Source: an uncultured Bacillota bacterium
GTDB taxonomy: Bacteria; Bacillota_I; Bacilli_A; RFN20; CAG-826
Direction: 5' to 3'
NCBI GenBank assembly: GCA_949287245.1
Contig: CASEFL010000004.1
Span: forward strand, 5,855-41,498
Length of the DNA stretch: 35,644 nt
A program made the position numbers and the translations under genes. The first letter of the stretch is position 1; every line of letters begins with the position of its first letter. The notes beneath the pieces are model-generated. The model was not told where the DNA came from, did not search any database, and was given only the letters and a program-made list of their open reading frames with translations. This document shows positions 15,428-23,589 of the stretch, one piece after another.

Positions 15428-15757
15428 CTATCTTTTATCTAGTTTATTGCCTAAAAAACACAAAAATTGAAGAATAGCAGTAGTGACAAGCTTATTAATA
15501 ATTTCCCAATGTCCACTTTTATCAGGACCAATTCTGATTACTTGATCACTGTTCTTTATAATCCTTTGAATCGTTCTTTTTGATATTCCTACCAAAACCA
15601 CCAACTCTTCAAATAAAATCTTAGGATTAAGTCATATGGTGTCAATGCTCCTTCAAATAATATCTTGGATAGATGTTTCATGGACATTTTCATAGACATC
15701 AGGGACAACCGATATATGTTTAATAGAATTTTTAAATTCAAAAACAGAAATGAGGTT
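15428..15757 (-). pseudogene. decayed C-terminal part of an ATP-binding/HTH (AlbA-like) protein
   Basis: The minus strand is open in one frame apart from two TGA codons. It reads NLISVFEFKN..., VYENVHETSIQDII, stop, RSIDTI, stop, then NPKILFEELVVLVGISKRT and IQRIIKNSDQVIRIGPDKS followed by GHWEII. The last part is the winged helix-turn-helix that ends many AlbA_2/AAA_4-type putative transcriptional regulators (pattern GISxRTxQRxIK, then GxxKxGHWEI). The start and the ATP-binding domain are gone. TGA is a true stop elsewhere in this window, so this is decay rather than recoding. A related remnant follows at 16131-16449. Confidence 0.72.
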
Positions 15758-16130: not shown

Positions 16131-16449
16131 GCTAATCTTCCTTTTTAGAAATTATTTCCCAGTGTCCCGTTTTCGATGCTCCCACGAAATGAATGTCTTT
16201 GGATTTCGATAATTCCCTCTCTATTGTTGCTTTTGACACGCCTATTCGGTCGGCCATTTGTCTTCGTGTTATTCTTGGATTTTCATTTATTAGGTTAATC
16301 ATTTTCTCTCGAATAGAAGATTTTTGAGCATCATATTGAGCCTCATTTTGAGCATCATGGCACCAATTGGACTCAAACTATGCAAAGTGACCATGAAATA
16401 ACTCTTGCTAACATAGAAATCCGGTTGATGTTCTGCGTCTTGATAAACT
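16131..16449 (-). pseudogene. second decayed ATP-binding/HTH (AlbA-like) C-terminus, frameshifted
   Basis: The upstream frame reads VYQDAEHQPDFYVSKSYFM and VTLHSLSP, resembling the end of the ATP-binding part of AlbA_2-type proteins (PDFxVxxxYFxVxL). After about 16380 the match moves to another frame: NEAQYDAQKSSIREKMINLI, then NENPRITRRQMADRIGVSKA, TIERELSKSK, and GASKTGHWEIISKKED before TAG. That is an intact winged helix-turn-helix ending in the family's GHWEI motif. The frameshift and the missing N-terminal domain mark it as a pseudogene. It is similar in layout to the remnant at 15428-15757, which suggests two related copies lost in the same region. Confidence 0.72.
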
Positions 16450-16471: not shown

Positions 16472-16615
16472 AATAGCATTAATAAATTATCAATTTTTCT
16501 ATGTTCACTTGTTGTGTTGTTTGATTCTGTTTGTAACAATGCTTTTTTAAAAGAAACAAAAGCACGGGGCACTGTCGCTACAGAAATTCAAAGTATTAAA
16601 GCAATTTTGTCATAG
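16472..16615 (+). other. possible gene fragment, 47 codons, plus strand
   Basis: An open stretch without a start codon ends ...NNAFLKETKARGTVATEIQ, then SIKAILS and TAG. The ending has ordinary protein-like composition, unlike the hydrophobic beginning. I do not recognise the family, and the frame is short, so it may be a decayed 3' end or chance. Confidence 0.2.
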
Positions 16616-16725
16616 ATTATATATGTATTTGTTTTAATAATTCAATGATTATTTCTTCACGTTCGTGAGTTCTATTACAAAATTATTTGTGCTCATTTTT
16701 ATTAAGGGCAACGCTATACTTGTTC

Positions 16726-17778
16726 CTATAATTTAACTATTTTAGAATAGAAAGTGCTTCGTCCACTACCGTGTATGGAAATCTCACCACTTTCCACAAG
16801 TTTTTTCAAAGACGCAGCTACCGATGACCTTTCAATCGAGGGACAAAGTTCCATAATTTCACTTCTTGTAAACTTGCCGACTTTTCTTGCGATTGCCTGG
16901 CGCACTTGCTCGATAGCAGGAAGTTTTGTGTCTTTAAGTGCTACTCTATTTTCAAAGTCACGATAAGCCGAAAGGATTACACCCAAAAGATATTTGATGA
17001 ACTGCGTATTGTCCGATTTATCTTCATGCCACCCCACCGATGCGGATTGAAGGGCACCATAATACGCATCCTTTGTCTTTTCGATTTTTTGTTCAAGACT
17101 TATATATCGTCCAACTACATATCCAGAACGATATAACAATAACGTTGTTAACAGCCTGCTCATTCTGCCGTTGCCGTCATTGAACGGATGGATGCATAGA
17201 AAATCATTGATAAAGATCGGAATCAATATCAATGGGTCTACAATTCCATTATCTACCGCGCGATTATAATTCTCACAGATAGAATCTACCGCTTCCGGCG
17301 TTGCGTATGGCGCAAGTGGTTCAAATCGTATTGCTTCAGTTCCGTCACTTCTGATTTCTTGGATATAATTCTGCACATTTTTGAACCTACCCCCTATGCT
17401 GCGCCCTGAATATTGATAAAGGATACCATGTAGTTGCAAGATATAATTGCGATTTATAGGGATATACTCAAAGTTTTGATGTATTGTTTTTAACACTTCC
17501 CTATAACCACTTATTTCTTCTTCATCACGGTTCCTTGGCGTAGTCTTCTCCTCGCATAACTGTTTTATTCTCGTGCTGGTTGTGATGATACCCTCGATTT
17601 TGTTTGATGCCTCAACACTTTGAATTTTGGCAATCTCAACGAGCTTTTCTAAAACCGTGGGTTTTTGAGCCAAAAAAAGCTCTTGTTTTCCTTTGCACTC
17701 ATGTATCTGTGCAACAAGCGATATTATTTCACTATCCCAAGTCTTGTTTGCGTAGGCATCGTAATTAAAAGTTTTCAT
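16726..17778 (-). CDS. Fic-family protein with N-terminal inhibitory motif and C-terminal winged helix
   Basis: 350 residues. The catalytic motif HPFNDGNGR at 197-205 is intact, with the His that activates target hydroxyls and the Asp/Asn/Gly anion loop. Such enzymes usually transfer AMP from ATP to a protein side chain (AMPylation). An (S/T)xxxE(G/N) inhibitory motif, SNKIEG, lies at 58-63 in the N-terminal domain, so this is a class II, intramolecularly restrained Fic with no separate antitoxin. A winged helix-turn-helix (about 290-350, FTRSEIMELCP then SSVAASLKKLVESGEI) follows. I start at the ATG at 17778, supported by GAGG 6 nt upstream; a TTG eight codons earlier has no such site and overlaps a repeat. 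The gene stands alone among pseudogenes, with an operator array over its promoter. Target unknown. Confidence 0.9.
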   Translation of the reverse strand: MKTFNYDAYANKTWDSEIISLVAQIHECKGKQELFLAQKPTVLEKLVEIAKIQSVEASNKIEGIITTSTRIKQLCEEKTTPRNRDEEEISGYREVLKTIHQNFEYIPINRNYILQLHGILYQYSGRSIGGRFKNVQNYIQEIRSDGTEAIRFEPLAPYATPEAVDSICENYNRAVDNGIVDPLILIPIFINDFLCIHPFNDGNGRMSRLLTTLLLYRSGYVVGRYISLEQKIEKTKDAYYGALQSASVGWHEDKSDNTQFIKYLLGVILSAYRDFENRVALKDTKLPAIEQVRQAIARKVGKFTRSEIMELCPSIERSSVAASLKKLVESGEISIHGSGRSTFYSKIVKL

Positions 17779-17876
17779 CCAACACCTCAATTTTTCGTCC
17801 AATTAATACATATTTTTGGACGATTATCAATAAGTTTGGATGATTTTTCGCACAAATAATGCCCTGTTTGGATGAT
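17774..17876. promoter_or_regulatory. operator array: five copies of TTGGAYGA around the Fic promoter
   Basis: Two copies face the gene on the minus strand (17782-17775 TTGGATGA and 17802-17795 TTGGACGA). Three copies are on the plus strand (17816-17823 TTGGACGA, 17836-17843 and 17868-17875 TTGGATGA). Spacing is 20 nt within the minus pair, 20 nt between the first two plus copies, then 32 nt. The arrangement is thus symmetric about roughly 17809. The inner pair forms the inverted repeat CGTCCAA-N13-TTGGACG. The winged helix of the Fic protein is one candidate ligand, but this is inference. Confidence 0.72.
17803..17830 (-). promoter_or_regulatory. promoter of the Fic gene
   Basis: On the minus strand TTGATA (17830-17825) and TATTAA (17808-17803) are 16 nt apart. 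One TTGGACGA repeat lies in the spacer and another at the expected transcription start, an ideal position for repression. The leader would be about 20 nt and carries the GAGG ribosome site. Confidence 0.55.
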
Positions 17877-17879
17877 TAG

Positions 17880-18173
17880 ATATTATGTAAGATGAAAAGA
17901 GTAAGATGAGCGTATAAGCTAGATTTAGTCAAAGTTTTGACTATTTTTAGACTGTAACAGTTTTTTGATACTCGCTAACTCGGAATGATTAACCTATGAG
18001 ATTAGCAATCCTTCCCTCCTATATCCATATTTATAAATTGCGAATGTTCGAACCCGTTGTGCTACTGCGGTGGTTCGAACTTTTAAGGGTATTTTTGACT
18101 GATTTTAGTGCTTGAGATGGGATTCCAAAATTTTAGGATAAGACATAGTGAGCATAAATTGGTAAGATTTGGT
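17880..18173. other. intergenic region with one notable inverted repeat
   Basis: 294 nt between the Fic operator array and the tRNA-Lys terminator. It is AT-rich, with stops in all frames. The one feature I see is the inverted repeat at 18046-18080. Confidence 0.5.
18046..18080. repeat. inverted repeat with 9-bp arms containing GTTCGAAC
   Basis: GTTCGAACC (18046-18054) and GGTTCGAAC (18072-18080) are perfect inverse copies around a 17-nt loop. Each arm holds the 8-bp palindrome GTTCGAAC, which also resembles a tRNA T-loop. It does not form a tRNA and lacks a T run. It may be a protein-binding site or a tRNA-derived scar. Confidence 0.55.
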
Positions 18174-18208
18174 AAAAAAATAACCTATAATGCTTACACA
18201 TTATAGGT
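18174..18208 (-). terminator. Rho-independent terminator of tRNA-Lys
   Basis: In the minus-strand transcript a perfect 10-bp stem ACCTATAATG/CATTATAGGT with a 6-nt loop is followed by TATTTTTTT. It begins 14 nt after the encoded CCA. Confidence 0.92.
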
Positions 18209-18221
18209 GTTTGCCAGAAAA

Positions 18222-18297
<76 letters not shown>

Positions 18298-20413: not shown

Positions 20414-21961
20414 TTACCTCACATAATCACGTAAGTCGTTATAGCGATCAGCAATGACAGATTCGGGAGTTGCTCCTTCCCCGAAGAAAAGCATTTGCAT
20501 CACACTATCAACACTATCTCGACATTTTGCTGAACCGACAAAAGGAGCATCGACGAATTTCGTCCAATTGGCTTCTGGATTGACATAATAGCCAGAATTC
20601 ACTTTTGAGGTATTTTGGGCAACAGTATCCCCATAAGTAATGGGAGTTCTTGTTAAGAAATCCTGATAAACTTCTGAATTCTCACTATATTCACAAGAAG
20701 GGAAATATCCCGTATCCGCACAGAATTCCCCGTTATGCCATTTTGTTAACCATTTTAAAAGTTTCCATGCAGCGGCTCTTTCTGCCTCCGTCCCCTTATC
20801 AAGAAGAACTAAATTGGTACCTTGAGAAATGACAAATTTATGATCTTCATCGCGATAAGGAATGGGGGCAACATCAGTTTCAAAACGAGCGCCTGCAGGA
20901 ACACTATGTTTGGTTCCCGCCGTAGAGCCAACATTCATCACCGACATCATTTGGGTAAAGGGTCCCGAACAATAAGAGGTCTCACCAAAGTCGGCAGGAA
21001 TGGCTACCACATCTTCTTCATGAAGTTGCTTCATATAAGTCAAACCTTCGATTACTTCTGGAGAATCAAAACACAGATAGCCTTTTCTTGTTTGGGGATC
21101 TACTTCGGTATATTCTCCCCCCCATTGACGGACAAGAGTAATAAAGAAGTTCGCACCAGAGTCATAACCAAAAGGATGGAAGTTCTCTGCGCTAACACCA
21201 GTAAAATCTAAATATTGACTTCGATCGGCATCTTCAGGAATTTCTTTCCAGTTCGCGTAAGTTTCCCCGTTTGGACCGGCAATTTTATCAAAATAAGTTT
21301 GGTTATTTGAAGCCGCACTTCCCTTTTCTAATAAATCATTAATCGCGTGACCAACCGTCCGTACTTCTTCCCAAGTACTAGGAACTTTAATCGTAGAATC
21401 AAGCTTATTCGCCCATTCAAAGAAGGTTTTGTTATAAGTCATCGCTTCCGTTGATTTATTAAAAGGAATGCCCATCAAATAAGGATCTCCATTCTCATCA
21501 AATTCAACCTCATAGTTTTCTACCATGTAGTCTTCATAGAAGTCATCAGGAGAAATAGCATCGTCTGCTTCATCCGTTTCAATATAGTAATCAAGACGGA
21601 CAATTAAATCGCGGTTTACATAATCGGCCATATGGTCAGGATAGGCTAAAGCAAGATGAGGGAAAGTGCCAGAAGTCGCACTATAACCAATTTGCTCTTT
21701 TAATCCGTCATATCCACTTTTTGCTTCATATTCCACAATAATGCCTGTTTCCTTAGTAAATTCTTCAAGCATCGCTTCTAAGACATTATTGATATCCGCA
21801 CCAAATCCCGTCCAAAACTCAATGGTTGTTCCCTCAGGAATTTCCATATTAATGTCAATGGAATAAGGGTCAAGGCGACTTCCACAAGAAGCAAGAGAAG
21901 CGCCAGTTCCTGCCAAGAGAATACTTAAGGCAAGAGGGGCAATGATTTTTTTCATTTTCAT
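20414..21961 (-). CDS. ABC transporter solute-binding lipoprotein, paralogue 2
   Basis: 515 residues; lipobox SLASC (Cys26) after a Lys-rich start. The fold is that of family 1 extracellular solute-binding proteins (UgpB/MalE type): TIEFWTGFG near 45, a YPDHMADYVNRDLIVRLDYY segment near 110, GIPFNKSTEAMTYNKTFFEW in the hinge region and a C-terminal WKLLKWLT. It is a clear paralogue of the next gene (shared EFWTGFG, SGYD, YPDHMA, GIPFNKSTE, WGGEYTEVDP, IPADFGETSYCS, ISQGTN). Annotation by similarity would say sugar, but the neighbouring nuclease suggests nucleic-acid fragments or nucleotides. The two ATGs at 21961 and 21955 are both possible; AAGGAAG lies about 12 nt before the first. Confidence 0.9.
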   Translation of the reverse strand: MKMKKIIAPLALSILLAGTGASLASCGSRLDPYSIDINMEIPEGTTIEFWTGFGADINNVLEAMLEEFTKETGIIVEYEAKSGYDGLKEQIGYSATSGTFPHLALAYPDHMADYVNRDLIVRLDYYIETDEADDAISPDDFYEDYMVENYEVEFDENGDPYLMGIPFNKSTEAMTYNKTFFEWANKLDSTIKVPSTWEEVRTVGHAINDLLEKGSAASNNQTYFDKIAGPNGETYANWKEIPEDADRSQYLDFTGVSAENFHPFGYDSGANFFITLVRQWGGEYTEVDPQTRKGYLCFDSPEVIEGLTYMKQLHEEDVVAIPADFGETSYCSGPFTQMMSVMNVGSTAGTKHSVPAGARFETDVAPIPYRDEDHKFVISQGTNLVLLDKGTEAERAAAWKLLKWLTKWHNGEFCADTGYFPSCEYSENSEVYQDFLTRTPITYGDTVAQNTSKVNSGYYVNPEANWTKFVDAPFVGSAKCRDSVDSVMQMLFFGEGATPESVIADRYNDLRDYVR

Positions 21962-21978: not shown

Positions 21979-23589
21979 TTATTGATAGTCACGAAGATCC
22001 GCATAAGCCGAATCAATCGCTTGTTGGGCAGTAAGATTATCAATAAACACTTGGTTGGTGATAGTGTCTACACGCAATCTTACCGAAGAAGAACCAGAGA
22101 AACCAGGATCGACGAATTTATGCCATGAGGCATCTTCATCCATATACACATTATTGTTTAATTGAGCCGCATAACGTTGTAAATGATAAGCCTCGGATTC
22201 TCCTACTCCACTAGCGTTTAAGAAGTCTTGATAATCTTCGTCATTTTGTGAAGTTTCACAAGTGGGGAAATAACCAGTCAGCATGGCGAATTTTCCATTT
22301 CCTTGTTGGGTCATATATTTAATGAATTTCCAAGAAGCAACAAACTTCTTATCCGCTTCTTCTTGGGTAGCACCATGCGCTTCAAGCATGATCATGTTTG
22401 TTCCTTGAGAAATCACATATTTATTGTCCGCATCTTGATAAGGAATAGGAGCAATTTTGCTTGTAAAGGCGCTTGTAGCACAGTTAGAAACACCGGCAGA
22501 AGAACCAATATTCATTAAGGATTCGTTGACTTTATAGTGAGCACTACAATAGCTTGTCTCTCCAAAGTCAGCAGGAATACCAATAACATGGGCATCATAA
22601 AGTTCTTTTAAGCGGGTTAAAGCAGCTTTTGTCCCGTCATTATTAAAGACGATTTTCCCTTCCATCGTCGTAGGATCAACTTCGGTATATTCTCCACCCC
22701 ATTGACGGACAGCCGTAATAAAGAAGTTTGCCTGCGAGTCATATGAAAGTGGACGGAAGGCTTCTTCCGTAACCGCATCAAGATTCAAAAGTATATCTGG
22801 AGTTTTTCCTTCTTCATCAACAGGAAGATCAGTTACGGCATCATAAATGGTTCCATCCACCGTAATGACTTTTCCAAACCCATCGCGATTCTTAATCCAA
22901 TTAATGATTTTTGTACCTTCTGTTAATACTTCATCCCAAGTTGTAGGAACTTTAATTCCTGCTTCGACAATTAAAGGATTTTCAAAGAAGGTGGCGTTAT
23001 AAACCATGACTTCCGTCGATTTATTAAAGGGGATTCCTAAGATATAAGGAGTGCCATCATCGCGATACTCAAGCGATTCATTTTCGACAACATAATCGCT
23101 ATAGAAGTCGTCATAATCAAAACTTGGTAGTTCGTTAAAGGTTCCTTCACCAAGAGGGTCCGTGACCGTTCCACTTCTTGTTGCAGGGATGTCTTTATCA
23201 TGTTCAATAAATTGATCAAGACGCATGATAATATCAGAATCACGATAAGAGGCCATATGGTCAGGATAACCAACAGCGACATTCGGATACGTGCTTGTCG
23301 AGGCGCTTAAGTTAATGTTTTTCGCCAGGTTATCGTAACCGCTTTGACTCGTATGATTCACGGTAATGCCTGTTAATTCTTCAAAGTCTTCAATGACTTG
23401 TTCCATTTGTCCAGTCACCGTTTGACCAAAGCCAGTCCAGAATTCAATGGTCACCCCGCGTGTATCAAGACTCATGTCTGGCAAATAATCCGGACCAGAA
23501 CCTCCAACGGTTCCACAAGAGGCAAGAGTAGCTCCCGCGGTAAGAGTGAACACCCCCATCGCCAAGAGAGAAATGACTGATTTTTTCAT
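21979..23589 (-). CDS. ABC transporter solute-binding lipoprotein, paralogue 1
   Basis: 536 residues with lipobox TLASC (Cys25). It shares the whole layout of its downstream neighbour: TIEFWTGFG (about 47-55), YPDHMASYRDSDIIMRLDQF, GIPFNKSTEVMVYNATFFEN, WGGEYTEVDP, GIPADFGETSYCS and ISQGTNMIML. It is about 20 residues longer, mostly in an insertion after the first lobe (GTVTDPLGEGTFNELPSFDY region). It captures substrate outside the membrane and delivers it to the two permeases. Two binding proteins for one transporter imply a widened or split substrate range, or homologous subunits acting together. The start is supported by AAAGGA about 10 nt before the ATG. A small hairpin lies in the 56-nt gap after the permease gene. 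Confidence 0.92.
   Translation of the reverse strand: MKKSVISLLAMGVFTLTAGATLASCGTVGGSGPDYLPDMSLDTRGVTIEFWTGFGQTVTGQMEQVIEDFEELTGITVNHTSQSGYDNLAKNINLSASTSTYPNVAVGYPDHMASYRDSDIIMRLDQFIEHDKDIPATRSGTVTDPLGEGTFNELPSFDYDDFYSDYVVENESLEYRDDGTPYILGIPFNKSTEVMVYNATFFENPLIVEAGIKVPTTWDEVLTEGTKIINWIKNRDGFGKVITVDGTIYDAVTDLPVDEEGKTPDILLNLDAVTEEAFRPLSYDSQANFFITAVRQWGGEYTEVDPTTMEGKIVFNNDGTKAALTRLKELYDAHVIGIPADFGETSYCSAHYKVNESLMNIGSSAGVSNCATSAFTSKIAPIPYQDADNKYVISQGTNMIMLEAHGATQEEADKKFVASWKFIKYMTQQGNGKFAMLTGYFPTCETSQNDEDYQDFLNASGVGESEAYHLQRYAAQLNNNVYMDEDASWHKFVDPGFSGSSSVRLRVDTITNQVFIDNLTAQQAIDSAYADLRDYQ

Follow-up and report, generated by a model that had tools for sequence, protein, structure and literature searches.

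Autorepression by a Fic protein has been described for CccR (YPK_0951) of Yersinia pseudotuberculosis, which, like the protein studied here, combines a Fic domain and a class II inhibitory motif with a C-terminal HTH; this HTH binds the repeat AGATAATCAT-N26-ATGATAATCT at its own promoter, and dimerisation is required (PMC9755527). CbFic2 of Coxiella burnetii, a Fic protein with a C-terminal winged helix (wHTH), binds DNA and dimerises on it; its specific operator is not known, random DNA having been used (PMC10628234), whereas the fic gene of our locus has a predicted specific operator. According to excerpts of PMC12249575, SoFic and EcSofic, which are single-gene anti-phage Fic proteins, share the domain order of our protein, and movement of the EcSofic C-terminal domain is linked to ATP; no operator is described in these excerpts. 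For the Fic-wHTH family of our gene, no described operator was found in PMC open-access papers, and subscription journals may hold one.

The locus lies in a stretch of 35,644 nucleotides (the window) from an uncultured Bacillota bacterium. In window coordinates, the gene and the parts of its product are as follows.

16726 to 17778, minus strand: fic gene, 350 amino acids, with a helical N-terminal part, a Fic domain and a C-terminal winged helix (Pfam, PADLOC, AlphaFold2)
17590 to 17607, minus strand: SNKIEG, class II type inhibitory motif, residues 58-63; S58, N59, I61 and E62 invariant in 65 relatives
17155 to 17190, minus strand: catalytic Fic motif HPFNDGNGRMSR, intact, residues 197-208 (invariant columns)
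16741 to 16917, minus strand: winged helix domain, residues 288-346 (AlphaFold2 secondary structure)
16792 to 16830, minus strand: recognition helix, residues 317-329 (AlphaFold2 and relatives)
16816 to 16818, minus strand: residue 321, within the recognition helix, Ala here and Glu in most relatives

The Pfam Fic domain (PF02661) was recognised at residues 108-215 with E=4e-17 and 63 bits against a cut-off of 24. The PADLOC SoFic model, which supplies no cut-off, matched residues 18-344 (E=2.4e-39), and the NCBIfam SoFic equivalog model NF046030 scored 58 bits against a cut-off of 550; by these scores the fic product is homologous to SoFic of NF046030 and is not an equivalog. The N-terminal SNKIEG fits the class II motif type [S/T]xxxE[G/N], which was taken from PMC10628234 and PMC9755527. 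HPFNDGNGR (residues 197-205) conforms to HPFx[D/E]GN[G/K]R and is invariant in 65 relatives, the invariant catalytic columns being H197, P198, F199, D201, G202, N203, G204, R205 and R208. By its motifs the protein is a class II AMP-transferase of the Fic/Fido type, and AMPylation activity is predicted.

The AlphaFold2 model (mean pLDDT 91.6) ends in a predicted winged helix, composed of helices at residues 288-297, 305-311 and 317-329, the last being the recognition helix, and two wing strands at 333-336 and 343-346. PDB entry 7xux, which we take to be CccR, is a distant sequence relation of this protein (E=1e-4). The closest solved relative is PDB entry 8uqu, the N-terminal domain of a Bordetella bronchiseptica Fic protein, with 43% identity over 251 residues and a close structural match (Z 34.1, rmsd 1.5). 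Unlike the Fic protein of the window, the 8uqu structure is without a winged helix, and no paper on the function of this protein was found in the PMC open-access literature.

A preliminary description had reported a symmetric array of five TTGGAYGA copies, one of them in the promoter spacer, one at the expected transcription start and one overlapping the fic start codon. The elements of this region are listed below.

17825 to 17830, minus strand: −35 element TTGATA (TTGACA in a 97% identical relative), by sequence comparison
17802 to 17807, minus strand: −10 element ATTAAT (TATAAT in most relatives), with a spacer of 17 to the −35 element
17783 to 17788, minus strand: ribosome-binding site GAGGTG, from the sequence
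17775 to 17782, minus strand: half-site 1, TTGGATGA, exact copy, overlapping the ATG at 17776-17778
17795 to 17802, minus strand: half-site 2, TTGGACGA, exact copy, promoter-proximal arm of the core dyad, immediately past the −10 element
17816 to 17823, plus strand: half-site 3, TTGGACGA, exact copy, second arm of the core dyad, in the −35/−10 interval
17836 to 17843, plus strand: half-site 4, TTGGATGA, exact copy, 20 nt outside the dyad, mirroring half-site 1
17868 to 17875, plus strand: half-site 5, TTGGATGA, exact copy, 32 nt past half-site 4, mirror copy absent

All five copies proved to be exact, and they occupy 17775-17875, within 101 nt upstream of fic. The reported spacings, 20 nt between the members of an oriented pair and 32 nt up to the fifth copy, were confirmed, and the coordinates agree with the reported placement, one copy being at the −10 and transcription start. 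As for the symmetry, four copies are exactly mirrored about base 17809, and the fifth has no counterpart. Toward the gene, the elements follow one another as TCATCCAA (17868-17875), TCATCCAA (17836-17843), the −35 element, TCGTCCAA (17816-17823), the −10 element, TTGGACGA (17795-17802), GAGGTG, and TTGGATGA over the start codon (ATG, 17778-17776). The inner pair is an inverted repeat whose 8-bp arms match perfectly across a 13-nt spacer, and the next pair is mirrored 20 nt farther out on both sides. Both promoter elements are weak here, and a consensus promoter scan did not list them; the corresponding elements are TTGACA and TTTAAT in the 97% identical relative, and TTGACW and TATAAT in most relatives. 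The position and geometry of the array are established by these coordinates.

TTGGAYGA occurs nine times in the 35.6-kb window against 3.3 expected, a count reached in 0 of 100 shuffles. Among all 8-mer classes with one purine/pyrimidine position allowed, the densest within 101 nt anywhere in the window was the array itself with its five copies, while the top cluster in 12 dinucleotide-shuffled versions of the window had three copies (eleven times) or four (once). Pattern searches of the organism's own 1.1-Mb genome found the inverted pair, and likewise the 20-nt pair, nowhere but at the fic locus when 0 mismatches were allowed. When up to two mismatches were allowed, three weak inverted pairs appeared elsewhere in the genome, and the reversed control pattern gave one match.

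Relatives of the locus were drawn from the genus, order and class, from one scan of 84,980 species genomes and another of viral contigs, and from plasmid records. The expectation that orthologues carry the same repeats was borne out for the geometry, which is kept in 76 of 101 Fic-wHTH relatives, and not for the exact letters, which recur at few. In these 76, a count whose score included promoter position, an inverted repeat with 8-bp arms and a 13-nt spacer brackets the −10 element, with its centre about 35 nt upstream of the ATG, one arm amid the −35/−10 interval and its partner immediately after the −10 element. At least 7 of 8 bases were paired at this arm and spacer length in 67 of the 101 distinct upstream regions, against 8.0 in shuffles (maximum 15), and perfect dyads were present in 25 of them, against 0.28 (maximum 1). 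A promoter-blind dyad search gave centres concentrated at −34/−35 from the ATG, far above other positions. In the final, wider set the dyad was found at 110 of 144 non-redundant loci. These results establish that the geometry is conserved.

The letters of the half-sites are clade-specific, among them TCGTCCAA, TCGCCTAA, TCTCCTAA, TCCCTTAA, TCTCCCAA, TCTCGTAA, TCGCATAA, CTGCATAT and others. The exact TTGGAYGA array was rejected as a family motif, since just 2 of 224 family genomes contain its exact inverted pair. Because the letters vary by clade and the architecture is constant, the absence of the exact repeats from orthologues would be a misleading refutation. A locus's own half-site was repeated directly 20 nt outside the arms at 10 and 8 of 65 loci on the two sides, compared with 1.1 and 0.5 of 65 when half-sites of other clades were used as a control, and a second dyad was found upstream at 12-13 of 65 loci. 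A minority of the relatives have the 20-nt flanking copies, so the feature shared across the family is the core dyad alone; judged by this comparison, the window's array with its five copies elaborates a common plan.

Repeated half-sites were also seen by eye, unscored, before more distant Fic-wHTH genes, namely TTGGGGTA/TACCCCAA on an Acidovorax plasmid (L281), and ATATCATTTT and GGTATCA on Bacilli plasmids (L278 and L279, respectively). From these plasmid relatives, the operator plan may extend beyond the clostridial group.

The preliminary description had suggested that Fic, which ends in a winged helix, may bind its own promoter, and that AMPylation state might thereby be coupled to expression. 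When the operator was compared with the recognition helix given the Fic domain, the partial Mantel correlation was 0.33 (0 of 2000 permutations), against 0.004 for flanking DNA. When every 9-residue stretch of the protein was scanned without bias, the six best-ranked ones began at residues 314-319, which is the recognition helix. The covariation of operator and helix is thereby established, and part of it is shared descent, because operator identity also goes strongly with the protein as a whole (for the Fic domain, r=0.76). Held-out nearest-neighbour prediction showed a small gain for the helix (0.72) over the Fic domain (0.69), with 0.60 at random. Mutual information computed column by column for the protein as a whole was dropped, as shared descent dominates it and the top pairs were scattered over the Fic domain; only its sum over bases singled out R317. 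Since mutual information is dominated by descent, two other analyses were relied on, the partial Mantel scan and the tree mapping of residue 321.

Most relatives have Glu at residue 321, the fifth of the recognition helix, and base 4 of the arm is then C. The eight genes without Glu321 carry Ala (the window gene and L004), Gly (L041), Leu (L170, L181, L131 and L134) or Gln (L236), and base 4 is never C in them, with 0 exceptions among 109 scored. On a tree of the Fic domain only, parsimony placed four independent losses of Glu321 and four losses of C at base 4, and the leaves concerned were the identical 8 of 109; Fisher's test on the uncorrected table, which ignores relatedness, gave p=1.4e-6. 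For the tree, a gene was scored as C when either arm had C at base 4. Three loci (L005, L143 and L246) were dropped from the count because their automatic dyad calls were judged misregistered or AT-rich false, and L131 and L134, whose 12-nt spacer was overlooked by the dyad finder, were included by eye. The pattern was first seen in L001, L004, L041 and L170, and the four later cases all agreed with it. A contact between glutamate and cytosine is chemically ordinary. The helix would set the letters of the half-site such that, for instance, Arg317 without Glu321 goes with TCGTCC, and Lys or Arg317 with Glu321 goes with TCGCCT.

A search of 395 genomes with the DNA pattern only gave four matches, three of which are Fic promoters: the window, the 97% identical relative, and a new fic gene. 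The new protein is 60% identical, and its helix sequence RSSIL has Arg317 and Leu321 with no Glu, as predicted. The fourth match (L180) was a chance site without a Fic gene. Scans of the viral collection with the TCRTCCAA, TCGACCAA and TCGCCTAA operators yielded 45 stretches, 0 of which had a detectable Fic relative; the bare operator pattern is therefore poorly specific in 2.9 million viral contigs. With the geometry conserved, the letters covarying with the helix and the paired site unique to the locus, the predicted binding of its own promoter by the Fic winged helix is well supported by comparison.

Several genomes carry more than one member of the family. In G080 a second fic, with CTGCATAT, lies 271 bp past the 97% identical relative, which has TCGTCCAA; in this tandem Fic-wHTH pair (L234, G080:C3:127500-131700) each gene has its own dyad operator. 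The members in G169 have the half-sites TCTCGTAA, TTAACTAA/TTGCCTAA and CTGCATAT, and those in G062, G257 and G187 likewise differ in their half-sites. Such per-paralogue half-sites suggest selection for separate circuits.

The fic module and its promoter have a 97% identical counterpart in a different genus of the family, in blocks at about 16554-17950 and 18093-18220; the 143 nt or so between them (17950-18093) are missing from the relative. Homology ends 2 bp from the 3′ end of a tRNA-Lys (18222-18297), and the relative lacks a tRNA at the corresponding place. This arrangement looks like a recent transfer of the fic module beside a tRNA; no convincing direct repeats marking att sites of the module were found. 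Fic-wHTH relatives are present on plasmids, viral contigs and prophages. No downstream partner gene is conserved among the relatives. Of 64 loci in which an ORF closely follows fic, six have phage portal-like proteins there; apart from these, the only shared families are one cluster of three and one of two, and fic therefore behaves like a single-gene module.

In several viral or prophage loci (L047, L120, L127, L143, L145, L146 and L277), fic stands immediately before what is, by our own reading of the sequences, presumably a portal-like gene, and in L277 it stands immediately after the gene for the terminase large subunit. This placement is possibly an accessory-gene (moron) hot spot for Fic modules. 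In the window, the 1.7 kb downstream of fic is gene-poor apart from two short winged-helix protein remnants on the minus strand (15428-15604 and 16132-16302), which have a common GHWEII ending; the latter matches HTH_24 (E=3e-6). They are probably debris of earlier mobile modules. Elsewhere in the window, tandem similar genes for extracellular sugar-binding-like lipoproteins (20414-21961 and 21979-23589) adjoin a transporter permease gene, an ordinary arrangement.

On the basis of these comparisons, the array is very probably the autorepressor operator of a single-gene, SoFic-like module, and its five repeats are most likely docking sites through which Fic would shut off its own synthesis. A Fic dimer, or a higher oligomer, would place two winged helices on the inner TCGTCCAA arms, whose starts lie 21 bp from each other on the same face of the DNA. 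Occupancy of the arms would occlude the −10/−35 region and block RNA polymerase, so that fic represses itself. Further protomers would occupy the half-sites that flank the arms at 20 nt and reinforce repression, and a separate antitoxin or repressor gene would be unneeded. Derepression might be coupled to nucleotide, for which the domain movement of EcSofic and the DNA-stimulated activity of CbFic2 serve as analogies. Physical binding, repression as the sign of regulation, the oligomeric state and the inducing signal are what we infer in this scheme.

Eight-base words are short, and a cluster of them could arise by chance or from a simple repeat without function. We count this explanation as refuted, since shuffles yield three to four copies at most, relatives keep the geometry with different letters, and the four losses at residue 321 and base 4 coincide. 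Control in trans is common among promoters, and the array itself is silent on its binder, which would also suit occupancy and control of fic by a different host DNA-binding protein. The letters of the half-sites, however, follow the helix encoded by the downstream gene itself, across many genera and prophage copies. One motif per genome would be expected of a host regulator, yet paralogues within a genome carry different half-sites, and a single host regulator is therefore disfavoured; we consider such control highly improbable.

Fic on the array might instead act mainly as an activator or a scaffold, its AMPylation activity and not transcription being altered by DNA binding, as CbFic2 becomes more active on DNA (PMC10628234). 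The arms, however, bracket the −10 element and overlap the ATG, which is the classical placement for a repressor, and repression and toxicity are separable in CccR (PMC9755527). We regard this role as unlikely to be the main one; the repressor and the activator or scaffold functions are not mutually exclusive.

Most winged-helix Fic proteins are annotated without a known DNA site. Here a predicted site can be read from the sequence in more than 100 gut and environmental bacteria, and it shifts with a few residues of the helix. This joint change of the sites and the DNA-reading helix would amount to an unusually readable protein-to-DNA code, testable residue by residue. Autorepression would explain how dose might be controlled in a single-gene Fic module without an antitoxin gene, and the site gives a handle on control of repression by AMPylation state or ATP. 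More tentatively, and with the balance somewhat against it, the mobile Fic-wHTH modules on plasmids, in prophages and beside a tRNA could form operator "immunity groups" akin to those of temperate-phage repressors. If so, a resident Fic would repress incoming modules that share its half-site, selection for independent circuits would lead to repeated joint switching of recognition helix and operator, and the residue-to-base code would remain readable, Glu321 with arm base 4 being its clearest entry.

Among known systems, repeated inverted sites in its own promoter and cooperative repression are likewise reported for the AbiEi antitoxin; AbiEi is an unrelated protein, and its system has separate toxin and antitoxin, unlike the Fic of the window. 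The likeness to CccR is closer. Both genes have an inverted repeat over their own −35/−10 region with no separate repressor, binding and repression being shown in CccR and predicted here. The preliminary description knew of no such operator, a statement to be corrected in view of CccR, which as a Fic-HTH protein autorepresses through an inverted repeat of a different geometry. CccR has 10-bp arms and a 26-bp spacer (36 bp between half-sites), compared with 8-bp arms and a 13-nt spacer (21 bp) here; a 26-bp half-site spacer was not found, the spacer being 13 in the window and its relatives. CccR uses one dyad, against the four- to five-copy array of our locus, and is also a secreted effector. 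The system of the window most likely works like CccR with a different geometry and helix. Autorepression by a Fic-HTH protein was already known from CccR, and what is new is a variant of its geometry, with 8-bp arms and a 13-nt spacer.
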